Source: Crocosphaera sp. (GTDB taxonomy: Bacteria > Cyanobacteriota > Cyanobacteriia > Cyanobacteriales > Microcystaceae). From it: a DNA stretch of 64,000 nt. A program made the position numbers and the translations under genes. The notes beneath the pieces were generated by a model that saw only the letters and a list, made by a program, of their open reading frames with translations, was not told the DNA's origin and did not search any database. The stretch covers positions 1 to 64,000 of the forward strand of contig NZ_JASJEB010000006.1 of the NCBI RefSeq assembly GCF_030064895.1. The letters run 5' to 3'. Numbering within the stretch: the stretch's first letter is position 1; every line of letters begins with the position of its first letter. Shown here in pieces: positions 707 through 4,479 of the stretch.

Positions 707-727
707 TGGTCACTGATAACTGATATG
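707..727 (+). repeat. STRR heptamers at Roco start
   Basis: Three successive heptamers (TGGTCAC, TGATAAC, TGATATG) run directly into the Roco start codon, which lies inside the third unit. The same heptamer family recurs at 10305-10339 and 22268-22288, with a related TGATAAA pair near 20625-20640. Confidence 0.6.
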
Positions 728-3295
728 ACAGACGAAGAATTATTACAGGTTATTGAAGAAGCAGCAAGGGATAAAATAGAATCCTTGGATCTTTGGAATG
801 AGAACTTAAATTCTTTACCCCCTGAAATTGGTCAATTAACTAATCTCACTTCACTTTCTCTGTCGAATAACCAACTAACAAACCTTCCCTCTGAAATTTG
901 TAAACTAACTAATCTCACTTCACTTTCTCTGTGGAATAACCAACTAACAAACCTTCCCTCTGAAATTTGTAAACTAACTAATCTCACTTCACTTTCTCTG
1001 TGGAATAACCAACTAACAAATATTCCTGCTGAAATTGGTCAACTAACTAATCTCACTTCACTTTCTCTGTCGAATAACCAACTAACAAATATTCCTGCTG
1101 AAATTGGTCAACTAACTAATCTCACTTCACTTTATCTGTCGAATAACCAACTAACAAATATTCCTGCTGAAATTGGTCAACTGACTAATTTACAAGTTCT
1201 TTCTTTGTTAAATAATCAATTAATAAATCTTCCTCCTGAAATTAGTAGATTAACTAATCTATATAGATTATCTGTAGGTTTATCTCAATCAAATAGTTTA
1301 TCCAGTGATCTTAATATAATAATTGACCTAACTAATACAAATAAAATTGATAGACTTTCTATATCATTTAAAAAACTCATTAATATTCCTTATGATATTT
1401 TCAAAATAACTCAATTAACTGCACTTGATTTATCTAACAACCAACTAAATACTATTCCCTCTGAAATTGGTCAACTATCTAATTTAGAAATTCTCGATCT
1501 TAGCAAAAATAAATTAAATACATTACCAAAAGAAATTAGTAAATTATATAACTTAAGAAATTTAGCATTACGAGATAATCAATTTACAAAGCTTCCTGCT
1601 GAAATTGGACTATTGGCATTACAAAGATTAACCTATGGAAATAATCCCTTACAATCTCCTCCAACTTCAATTAGAAAAAAAGGGGTTGCAGCAATAAGAA
1701 ACTATTTAAAACAACAATTAGAACAAAAAATTGAGCATCTTTATGAAGCAAAATTATTAATTGTTGGAGAACCAGGTGCAGGAAAAACTACCTTAGCGCA
1801 AAAAATAAAAAATAATAATTATCAACTCAAAACCTATGAAGAATCTACGGAAGGAATAGATGTCATTCAATGGTCTTTTCCCCTAGATAACGGGAAAAAC
1901 TTTAGAGTTAATATTTGGGACTTTGGGGGACAAGAAATTTATAAAGAAACCCATCAATTTTTTCTCACCGAAAGATCACTTTATACATTAGTTGCTGATA
2001 CTCGTAAAGAAAACACAGACTTTTATTACTGGTTAAACGTGGTTGAATTATTGAGTAATAGTAGTCCTATTTTAGTCATTAAAAATGAAAAGCAAGAACG
2101 CAAAAGAGACATTAACGAACGACAATTAAGAGGAGAATTTACTAATTTTAAAGAAACTTTAGCCACTAACTTCGCAACTAATAGAGGTTTACCTGAAATT
2201 TTAAATAAGATTCAACACTATATCAGTAACTTACCTCATATTGGTGAAGAATTACCGGCATATTGGGTCAAAGTTCGAGAAGTTTTAGAACAAGATACCC
2301 GTGATTATATTACTTTTGAAGAATATTTAAACATCTGTAAAGACAAAGGATTTAAAGAGTTAGAAGATATGTTAGTTTTAAGCGGTTATTTTCATGACTT
2401 AGGGGTATTTCTACACTTTCAAAATGATGATCTTTTACAGAAAACTATTATTCTTAATACTGCTTGGGGAACTGATGCAGTTTATAAAGTCTTAGATAAT
2501 GAAAATGTTAGGGCAAATTTAGGTAAATTTAATAAAAATGATTTAAACAATATCTGGAATGAGGAAAAATATATTACCATGCGTAGCGAACTTTTAAAGT
2601 TAATGATGAACTTTAAACTATGTTATGAAATACCTAGTCAACCAGGAAATTATATTACACCTCAATTATTAAATGCAGAACAACCAGAGTATGATTGGTA
2701 TGAAGAAAATAACCTACTTTTGCGCTATGAATATGAATTTATGCCTAAAGGAATTTTAACCCGTTTTATTGTAGAAACCCATGCTATCATTGAGAATGAA
2801 ACTTGTGTTTGGAAAGAAGGAGTGGTCTTAACTAAAGATGGTGCAAGAGCAGAAATTATTGAACGTTATCGCTATCATAAAGGAGAAATTCGTATACGAG
2901 TCTCAGGAACCCGTAAACGAGATTTATTAACCACTATTAGATATGAATTAGACAAAATTCATAATTCTTATGAACGTCTTAAATATAAAACATTAGTCCC
3001 CTGTAACTGTTCAAAATGTAAAGGTAGTCAGTCACCCCATTTTTATCCTTGGGATGTGCTTAATAAATTTATTGATGATAAACAACCTACAATTCAATGT
3101 CCAATTAGTTATGATATGGTGAATGTACAGGGTTTAGTCAATGATATTATTTCACCCGACCGAACTCCATCTATAAATAACGAGGAAAGTGAAATATCAA
3201 ACCAATATATAAATAACACAATTAATGTAAATGGTTCCGCTCAAATTCATCAACAAAATCAAGGTGAAGGACAATTCAATATCGATCCTTCTTAA
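725..3295 (+). CDS. LRR-Roco (Roc-COR) GTPase
   Basis: An 856-residue Roco protein. Residues about 20-330 are leucine-rich repeats of the LxxLxLSNNQLTNLPxEI type. The Roc G domain follows, with P-loop GEPGAGKT at 348-355, switch WDFGGQE at 398-404, and the NEKQER motif that replaces NKxD in cyanobacterial Rocos. The COR dimerisation domain spans about 520-790 and contains a cysteine cluster (VPCNCSKCKG) that may bind metal. The polar tail ends INVNGSAQIHQQNQGEGQFN. Roco proteins are dimeric nucleotide-regulated switches; the LRRs probably sense a ligand. There is no kinase domain. The ATG lies inside a heptamer repeat without a clear Shine-Dalgarno. The next ORF is in the same frame 33 bases after the stop and repeats the tail. 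Confidence 0.93.
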   Translation: MTDEELLQVIEEAARDKIESLDLWNENLNSLPPEIGQLTNLTSLSLSNNQLTNLPSEICKLTNLTSLSLWNNQLTNLPSEICKLTNLTSLSLWNNQLTNIPAEIGQLTNLTSLSLSNNQLTNIPAEIGQLTNLTSLYLSNNQLTNIPAEIGQLTNLQVLSLLNNQLINLPPEISRLTNLYRLSVGLSQSNSLSSDLNIIIDLTNTNKIDRLSISFKKLINIPYDIFKITQLTALDLSNNQLNTIPSEIGQLSNLEILDLSKNKLNTLPKEISKLYNLRNLALRDNQFTKLPAEIGLLALQRLTYGNNPLQSPPTSIRKKGVAAIRNYLKQQLEQKIEHLYEAKLLIVGEPGAGKTTLAQKIKNNNYQLKTYEESTEGIDVIQWSFPLDNGKNFRVNIWDFGGQEIYKETHQFFLTERSLYTLVADTRKENTDFYYWLNVVELLSNSSPILVIKNEKQERKRDINERQLRGEFTNFKETLATNFATNRGLPEILNKIQHYISNLPHIGEELPAYWVKVREVLEQDTRDYITFEEYLNICKDKGFKELEDMLVLSGYFHDLGVFLHFQNDDLLQKTIILNTAWGTDAVYKVLDNENVRANLGKFNKNDLNNIWNEEKYITMRSELLKLMMNFKLCYEIPSQPGNYITPQLLNAEQPEYDWYEENNLLLRYEYEFMPKGILTRFIVETHAIIENETCVWKEGVVLTKDGARAEIIERYRYHKGEIRIRVSGTRKRDLLTTIRYELDKIHNSYERLKYKTLVPCNCSKCKGSQSPHFYPWDVLNKFIDDKQPTIQCPISYDMVNVQGLVNDIISPDRTPSINNEESEISNQYINNTINVNGSAQIHQQNQGEGQFNIDPS
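836..1180 (+). repeat. five 69-bp LRR coding repeats
   Basis: Five consecutive 69-bp units encode 23-residue LRRs (residues 38-152 of the Roco protein) that are almost identical at DNA level, for example the recurring block ctaactaatctcacttcact. The flanking LRRs further downstream are much more diverged. This points to recent unit expansion or homogenisation within the gene. Confidence 0.9.
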
Positions 3296-3415
3296 TCGAC
3301 TTTATTAAAAAATAACGAGGAAAATGAAATGTCAAATAAAACCATAAATAATACTTTTCATATTAACGGTTCTACTCAAATTCATCAACAAAACGAAGGT
3401 GAAGCAAACTTTAAT
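3175..3415 (+). repeat. tandem 106-bp duplication
   Basis: Bases 3175-3280 (Roco C-terminus) and 3310-3415 (start of the next gene) are gapless diverged copies offset by 135 bp, a multiple of three. Both encode NNEExExxSN...INNT..NGSxQIHQQNxGExxFN. In copy 1 the codon is ATA; in copy 2 the same position is ATG and serves as the start codon of the next gene. Confidence 0.88.
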
Positions 3416-3718
3416 AACTATGCTTCCCATGCGTCTATCAACAATGCAATAGATGAAATTAAAAATATCCTAAATAAATTAAATAATAAATATTCCAATG
3501 TTAGCGAAACAACAGCAACAGAAATTATTAATGCAGAGTTTACACATATTCAAAATAACCAACCCGAAAAATGGGCAATTATCAAACATATATTTGATGG
3601 AAAACGCTGGTTAAATGGAGGGAAAACAGCATTTATAAAAGTCGGTGAACATTACAGCGAAAATAACGTATTTTGTAAAGCAGTAGTGGGTTTTGGTGAA
3701 GGGTTTAGCGACAGTTAA
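3329..3718 (+). CDS. small protein with Roco C-terminal tag
   Basis: A 129-residue protein that I cannot assign to a named family. Its N-terminus (INNTFHINGSTQIHQQNEGE) copies the C-terminal tail of the upstream Roco GTPase. The middle is helical (AIDEIKNILNKLNNKY), and the C-terminus (KRWLNGGKTAFIKVGEHYSE, then GFGEGFSDS) resembles tails seen at the ends of cyanobacterial signalling NTPases; that resemblance is from memory. GAGGAAAA just upstream can serve as ribosome binding site. The frame is the same as the Roco gene with one TAA between and no other stop across the 33-nt gap. It could be a separate partner, a split-off Roco C-terminal domain, or a readthrough extension. Confidence 0.7.
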   Translation: MSNKTINNTFHINGSTQIHQQNEGEANFNNYASHASINNAIDEIKNILNKLNNKYSNVSETTATEIINAEFTHIQNNQPEKWAIIKHIFDGKRWLNGGKTAFIKVGEHYSENNVFCKAVVGFGEGFSDS

Positions 3719-3816: not shown

Positions 3817-4131
3817 ATGGCTTCAATTTCCACAGATTATAAACACATTCACCTGAATGAACAAGGTACAGCAATAATTATAGGTTCAACCCTCAAAGTC
3901 ATTGATCTTGTAATAGCAAAAATGGCTTATGGTTGGACACCTGAAGAAATACAGGTTAATCATCGTCATTTAACCATGAGTCAAATTCATTCCGCATTCG
4001 CTTATTATTGGGAATATAAAGAACAATTAGATCAAGAAATTCAACAAGAGGTTGAATACGTTAAAAAGTTGCGTTCCCAAGCAGGAGACTCTCCCTTTGT
4101 AACCCGACTCAAAGCTGAAGGAGTTCTCTAA
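3817..4131 (+). CDS. DUF433 antitoxin
   Basis: A 104-residue protein with the DUF433 helix-turn-helix signature: IGSTLKVIDLVIAKMAYGWTPEEI followed by HLTMSQIHSAFAYYWEY. DUF433 proteins are predicted antitoxins that bind the operator of their own operon and pair with DUF5615 PIN-like toxins. The toxin gene starts on the base after this stop codon, so translation is probably coupled. The C-terminal part after residue 70 is charged and likely wraps the toxin. Assignment by motif and neighbour is firm; activity is inferred. Confidence 0.85.
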   Translation: MASISTDYKHIHLNEQGTAIIIGSTLKVIDLVIAKMAYGWTPEEIQVNHRHLTMSQIHSAFAYYWEYKEQLDQEIQQEVEYVKKLRSQAGDSPFVTRLKAEGVL

Positions 4132-4479
4132 TTGACTTTACCCCTTTATATGGATGAAAATGTACATGGTGCAATTACCATAGGCTTACGTTTGCGAGAA
4201 ATCGATGTTTTAACTGTTCAAGAAGATGGTTATTCTGGTGTAGATGATATCATAATTTTAGACCGTGCAACTACCCTAAAAAGACTTATTTTTAGTCAAG
4301 ATAAAGACTTTTTAATAGAAGCGAATAATCGTCAAGTACAAGGTATGGAATTTGTCGGAGTTATTTATGGTCATCAACTAATGATATCTATCGGTGATTG
4401 TATTCGAGATTTAGAGTTAATTGCCAAGTTAGGAAAGTTAGAAGAATTTGCCAATAAAGTACAATATTTACCTCTTTAA
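4132..4479 (+). CDS. DUF5615 PIN-like toxin
   Basis: A 115-residue PIN-fold-like protein. Visible acidic motifs are YMDENVHGAI near the N-terminus, the conserved internal Asp in VQEDG and LDRATTLKRLIFSQDKDFL, which match the DUF5615 pattern of putative RNases. It starts with TTG immediately after the DUF433 stop, so spacing is zero and start choice is forced by reading frame. Together the two genes form a type II-like toxin-antitoxin operon. All acidic residues expected for metal binding appear present, so I see no sign of inactivation. Confidence 0.82.
   Translation: MTLPLYMDENVHGAITIGLRLREIDVLTVQEDGYSGVDDIIILDRATTLKRLIFSQDKDFLIEANNRQVQGMEFVGVIYGHQLMISIGDCIRDLELIAKLGKLEEFANKVQYLPL

Follow-up and report, generated by a model that had tools for sequence, protein, structure and literature searches.

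A short tag shared by a Roco GTPase and a small helical protein in Crocosphaera: a candidate recruitment system of cyanobacteria

Known systems built on shared motifs and adaptors

Motifs that are rich in N, Q and G, terminal, self-similar and fast-turning are typical of amyloid signalling in fungi and bacteria (PMC7889193, PMC9815663, PMC12261475). In bacteria, such links are represented by BASS, which connect NLRs to BELL-domain proteins (Dyrka et al. 2020, as summarised in PMC7889193, PMC8086366 and PMC9815663), and in fungi by NWD2/HET-S. Homotypic adaptors of another kind, common to NTPase and effector proteins, have been described as EADs by Kaur, Burroughs, Iyer and Aravind (PMC7159879, PMC8195603). 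At the C-terminus of Roco proteins, at least 24 domains were listed by Kaur et al. 2021, and conflict functions were predicted for them (PMC8195603, section 15).

A Roco gene and a small gene with a common tag

The window analysed here, a stretch of 64,000 nucleotides from Crocosphaera sp., carries a Roco GTPase gene followed by a gene for a small protein. The features of the locus are:

725..3295, forward (+) strand: Roco GTPase gene (LRR-Roc-COR, 856 aa) with its own tag at the end (ORF list, Pfam)
1751..2089, forward: Roc GTPase domain, residues 343-455 of the Roco protein (Pfam Roc, 5.8e-24)
2255..3145, forward: COR-A and COR-B, residues 511-807 of the Roco protein (Pfam COR-A 1.4e-43, COR-B 1.2e-43)
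3164..3298, forward: tandem repeat unit, copy 1, with Shine-Dalgarno-like GAGG (3182-3185), ATA (3194-3196) and tag ISNQYINNTINVNGSAQIHQQNQGEGQF
3293..3295, forward: TAA by which the ancestral fused ORF is split, relatives having no stop at the same place
3299..3426, forward: tandem repeat, copy 2, with Shine-Dalgarno-like GAGG (3317-3320), ATG (3329-3331) and tag MSNKTINNTFHINGSTQIHQQNEGEANF
3329..3718, forward: small tag-module protein, 129 aa
3428..3715, forward: predicted helical module, residues 34-129, with helices 35-54, 60-77, 79-89, 91-110 and 114-128 (AlphaFold2, alignments)
3817..4131, forward: DUF433 gene, antitoxin-like, a syntenic neighbour (Pfam 1.9e-05), also 3' of the fused gene in genome G655
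4132..4479, forward: DUF5615 gene, PIN-like, toxin-like (Pfam 1.8e-10)

The large protein is a Roco by its domain order, a Roc GTPase followed by COR, with Pfam Roc, COR-A and COR-B in that sequence. Its LRR region (822-1260) is a 69-bp tandem array of about 6.4 units with 90% match, which suggests that repeats of the sensor part have expanded recently. A separate direct repeat of 128 nt (3164-3291 and 3299-3426; gapless, 77% identity, spacing 135) spans the 3' end of the Roco gene and the beginning of the small gene, and its copies are in frame because of the offset of 135. The top ungapped self-match within 2900-3718 reached a score of 68 at this offset, whereas none of 40 phase-preserving shuffles scored above 16. 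This rules out a chance repeat, and the 23% of positions that differ between the copies rule out an assembly artefact. The gapless in-frame repetition of the Roco 3' end noticed by a first-pass annotation of the window is thereby borne out, and the single TAA at 3293-3295, the 33 open in-frame bases behind it (3296-3328) and the ATA of copy 1 opposite the ATG of copy 2 are all present as it had described. The GAGG of copy 2 lies 8 bases 5' of the small-gene ATG, and this element is duplicated within the repeat. Over 30 codons the copies show 7 synonymous and 11 non-synonymous differences; the tag is N/Q/G-rich, and copy 1 has preserved its core NGSxQIHQQNxGE. Apart from copy 2, no convincing match to the copy-1 tag was found in the same genome, where a weak further match (contig C65) was rejected as non-coding.

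When modelled by AlphaFold2 with 58 relatives, the small protein has pLDDT below 50 over residues 1-29 and five helices over residues 35-128 with pLDDT mostly 70-94, and is predicted to be a disordered tag followed by a five-helix module. The protein and its module belong to no Pfam or NCBIfam family; PADLOC, Pfam and NCBIfam returned only sub-threshold noise on the module, e.g. Drt3b, and EAD profiles matched none of the 31 module members scanned with Pfam/NCBIfam models. A fold search against the PDB gave nothing convincing (Foldseek best E 0.52), and the best VIA-align Z, 5.2 to SmcR, is a score that is uninformative for helical bundles. Relatives of the small protein were absent from IMG/VR contigs and INPHARED phages.

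Compared with BASS at the level of their description, and with amyloid behaviour putative here, the candidate system is similar in that an NTPase receptor shares a short self-similar motif with the protein of an adjoining small helical gene, and in its many motif families, its occurrence in cyanobacteria and some TIR partners. However, BASS as summarised in the articles cited above place the motif at the N-terminus of the NLR and at the C-terminus of the BELL-domain effector protein, whereas here the termini are exchanged, the motif being C-terminal on the receptor and N-terminal on the partner, and because this defining polarity differs, the window tag system is not filed as BASS. The system here, unlike those descriptions, also includes Roco GTPases among the receptors, and single genes in which receptor and partner are fused and an internal start is kept. 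The partner, on which BASS would have a BELL domain, matched no Pfam or NCBIfam model, and its five-helix bundle found no clear counterpart in the PDB. The best reading of the sequences is a system that would be BASS-like in its working, reversed in polarity, inclusive of Roco proteins and possibly amyloid.

EADs resemble the tags as homotypic adaptors on NTPase and effector proteins, but they are folded helical domains, whereas the tags here have ~25-30 residues, are N/Q/G-rich and are disordered in models. In architecture, the window protein and its fused relatives also fit the AP-GTPase (Roco) conflict systems, whose bacterial LRR-Roc-COR proteins differ in their C-terminal effectors: LRR-AP-GTPase-COR is combined with a variable C-terminal effector or adaptor. 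The five-helix module, in contrast to the EADs and the domains of these systems, matches no Pfam or NCBIfam model. As in NWD2/HET-S, receptor- and effector-side versions of one motif come from adjacent genes, but the sequences are other ones, the system here is bacterial, the polarity is reversed and the tag fold here is only putative. In the literature searched, most of it open-access, neither a pairing of tags on Roco proteins nor the fused form with an internal start was found described.

Tags of receptors and partners across cyanobacteria

The small protein has a match in 77 of 390 cyanobacterial genomes, and about 10 kb was taken around 80 matches for locus comparison. At these loci the module is invariably C-terminal and behind a short tag. 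It can be fused to Roco (L035, L037, L086) or to NACHT-HEAT NLRs, one of which has an N-terminal trypsin-like domain, or it forms standalone proteins of 107-250 aa, sometimes behind HEAT repeats, that are encoded downstream of NLRs or Roco; two-gene layouts of receptor and tag-module are common in other genera. The small protein was thus found, as had been surmised, as the C-terminal part of longer Roco proteins, and since such fusions occur in several genera its homologues are not always unrelated to Roco genes. A scan of genome contigs with a single module member provided 12 named loci; named fused examples are WP_114085638.1 on plasmid pNsp_i of Nostoc sp. ATCC 53789 and WP_261892289.1 on plasmid pREC3 of Acaryochloris marina MBIC10699. 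Roco C-termini in fused relatives are the module, a second module family, or TIR-like or TM regions. This second, related helical family ends in ALxxLLxHPAxxFxxAAI, is preceded by Met and another tag, and is present on a second Roco of the window genome (L149, G000 contig C177) as well as on Rocos of other genera (L151-L153). In genome G531 (L154), a Roco has a Met-tag end (MSNDKSISISGGVFNAEVLNLGENSGG) followed by a low-complexity tail, and is perhaps a fusion minus its module.

At standalone loci, the large upstream protein ends in ~30 residues that are similar to the N-terminal tag of the partner. When the largest upstream ORF was chosen as partner at each of 40 loci, without inspection, own pairs had a mean tag-tail score of 53 and other pairs one of 28, and the observed sum was reached in 0 of 20,000 permutations (p<=5e-5). 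Sorted by tag type (FPNAxKVQIFE, GNVEGD, DLRGAxI, NTGxVTIxGDQ, AxNLGGTIxGDQIG, GGxFxDFVA and QIIExNxGxVIG), 27 pairs were concordant and 0 discordant, the remainder having no assignable tail or tag; the regular expressions for these types were drawn up after the sequences had been inspected, and the permutation test is independent of them. No matching upstream tail was found at about 15 standalone loci, in part because of absent partners or contig ends. On the module tree, at least 13 changes of tag type were counted over 26 loci, and at every one of these loci the tail agreed in type. L062 independently shows the arrangement of the window, a separate pair with another tag type that answers to the Roco/tag pairs anticipated in other cyanobacteria: behind a Roco with tail DLRGASIGNWAE comes a tag-module protein that bears DLRGANIGNFAE. 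Moreover, at L098 and L107 a TIR_2 protein adjoining a tag-module NLR bears the tag of that NLR N-terminally. The type matching in the permutation test rules out the tag as a generic linker, a caveat of the first-pass annotation, whose proposal of an assembly or recruitment link between the GTPase and a separate module now has strong, if indirect, support from these comparisons. The matched tags point to a like-binds-like recruitment code that would resemble fungal amyloid immune signalling.

Other tag arrangements were also seen. The type FNQQxATIGVNYAAEGS (L050, L052, L059, L065-L067, L069, L076, L080, L093, L102, L103, L106, L108) occurs in fused proteins only, never in standalone ones, and at L044 the opposite strand (871-2886) encodes a NACHT protein of 672 aa that has TM segments and, at its N-terminus, the GNVEGD-type tag of the locus.

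How the tags would bind can be read in more than one way. Within one type, the version on the receptor differs from that on the partner, e.g. NATEVKIFENVDxYHE vs NAQKVQIFEQVDTYIE, yet the two are complementary. Together with the unstructured tag in the AlphaFold2 models, this is consistent with ordinary pairwise binding, either by a dimer-forming peptide or by a docking strand that is not amyloid (beta-augmentation, beta-solenoid capping). This account is possible but doubtful, since self-similarity on both partners, N/Q/G richness, high turnover of types and terminal placement are all typical of amyloid motifs.

History, expression and proposed working of the locus

Within the genus, contig C77 of genome G655 has one 931-aa ORF encoding Roco, a single tag and module, with the DUF433 gene next in line as it is in the window, and single Roco-tag-module ORFs are likewise found on G655 contig C113 and in genome G623. 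Because these same-genus orthologues are single ORFs, one of them syntenic, the fusion is ancestral, and because they carry one tag, the tag was duplicated and the stop gained on the window lineage. The window is thus a derived state, in which a stretch of Shine-Dalgarno element, ATG and tag was duplicated before the TAA was gained. Two origins had been offered earlier: the splitting of a longer Roco with two tags, of which the split is upheld and the two ancestral tags are not, and a partner arisen by duplication, which fits the tag but not the module, already in place before. Readthrough of the TAA, another earlier suggestion, is superfluous, as stop-less relatives are fused, and the Shine-Dalgarno element and ATG kept by relatives at the same place account for separate production.

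Loss is under way in the genus, since a TGA splits the gene before the tag in G675, a TAA lies within the tag in G664 and the Roco-module gene is truncated in G637; for the small protein, G652 and G684 were without a match and that in G673 was weak. With the Roco locus decaying in related genomes, the window split could be degenerative, the duplication and TAA being neutral damage to a dying fusion without a functional split, and the excess of non-synonymous over synonymous codon differences between the copies (11 vs 7) agrees with this. Such decay is nevertheless unlikely, given that both window ORFs are intact across their full domains, that the stop sits right behind the copied tag and the second ORF begins at a conserved Shine-Dalgarno element and ATG, that the tag core is retained in copy 1, and that two-gene arrangements are common in other genera.

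Compared with the window, the tag of G623 is identical at 7/29 positions and its module at 79/97, so that this tag appears to have been replaced within the genus, between conserved domains. That the matching reflects linkage and shared descent only, the tags being leftovers of gene fusion and splitting with no interaction code, would suit the local duplication behind the window copy and the interconversion of fused and split forms, but is decidedly improbable in view of this replacement, the type changes followed by the partner each time, receptor- and partner-side subtypes stable over long times, and the tags on unrelated TIR proteins. Receptor and tag could also be exchanged jointly by a single crossover where tag and module meet, without selection for matching.

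In fused genes, a Met stands at the junction, where a standalone protein would start, in 28 of 30 proteins (Met frequency elsewhere 1.3%), and a Shine-Dalgarno tetramer precedes the junction ATG in 14/32 genes, whereas the other in-frame ATGs of these genes have one in 27/363 cases (Fisher 2e-7, an optimistic value because the rows are phylogenetically related, a non-independence that the Met statistics share). Standalone starts have such an element at a similar rate (20/49). This suggests that fused genes may also make the free tag-module, two products from one gene; the junction start may persist merely because the fusions are young. A precedent for internal in-frame initiation is Cas11b (PMC11899642), likewise the C-terminal part of a defence gene that is also produced as a separate protein; for the fused tag-module genes the evidence is one of sequence, the retention of the Shine-Dalgarno element and ATG.

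Genes between the receptor and a standalone module, or 3' of fused genes, are very often toxin-antitoxin genes, with RelE (7), PIN (5), UPF0175 (4), ParE (4), DUF433 (2) and DUF5615 (2) in a set of 47, and UPF0175 (12), DUF3368 (7), XisH (2) and XisI (2) in a set of 43. Among the 25 families listed for 86 control ORFs, small ones from unrelated stretches of the same genomes, no toxin-antitoxin family had more than one member. The DUF433-DUF5615 pair of the window (3817-4479) conforms to this pattern, and at L049 such a pair lies between NLR and tag-module. The pairs seen at these loci (L049, L043, L056, L057, L063, L072, L074, L078 and the window), where they are much commoner than in the control stretches, are RelE, ParDE, PIN/UPF0175, HicAB and DUF433-DUF5615.

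Altogether, the observations are best explained jointly, with moderate confidence, if the repeat is a homotypic recruitment tag and the Roco a receptor-like switch that captures the tagged small protein. The LRR-Roc-COR protein would sense a trigger and assemble, so that its C-terminal tags cluster and capture the same-type N-terminal tag of the five-helix protein, most likely via beta-arch (amyloid-like) templating; the helical module would thereby be concentrated and switched on as effector or adaptor, with cell suicide or defence as the presumed outcome, and tagged TIR proteins would be captured likewise by homotypic tags. The ancestral Roco-tag-module ORF probably made both the full-length protein and the free tag-module, because a Shine-Dalgarno element and ATG stand in front of its tag. 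In the window, tandem duplication of this stretch, change of the copy-1 ATG to ATA and then the TAA left two genes, receptor-tag and tag-module, and if the ancestral gene had two products, the split would alter the product set little. A wider reading can be put forward only tentatively, in which cyanobacterial NLRs and Roco GTPases have one rapidly changing code in common, made up of seven or more short amyloid-like tags at their C-termini, and by it recruit N-tagged partners (the new five-helix module, TIR enzymes); many of the genes would yield two products, receptor-tag-module and, by internal initiation, free tag-module, and toxin-antitoxin genes would belong to the unit.

The window catches the step from a fused gene to a two-component system, while the fused ancestral form persists in sister genomes. 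The bacterial tag pairs lend themselves to direct tests of specificity rules, being short, numerous and swapped in nature. Whether signalling amyloids exist in NLR-independent bacterial pathways has been asked (PMC7889193), and a Roco GTPase (LRRK2/DAPK1 class) that carries a matched tag would provide such an NLR-independent bacterial case.
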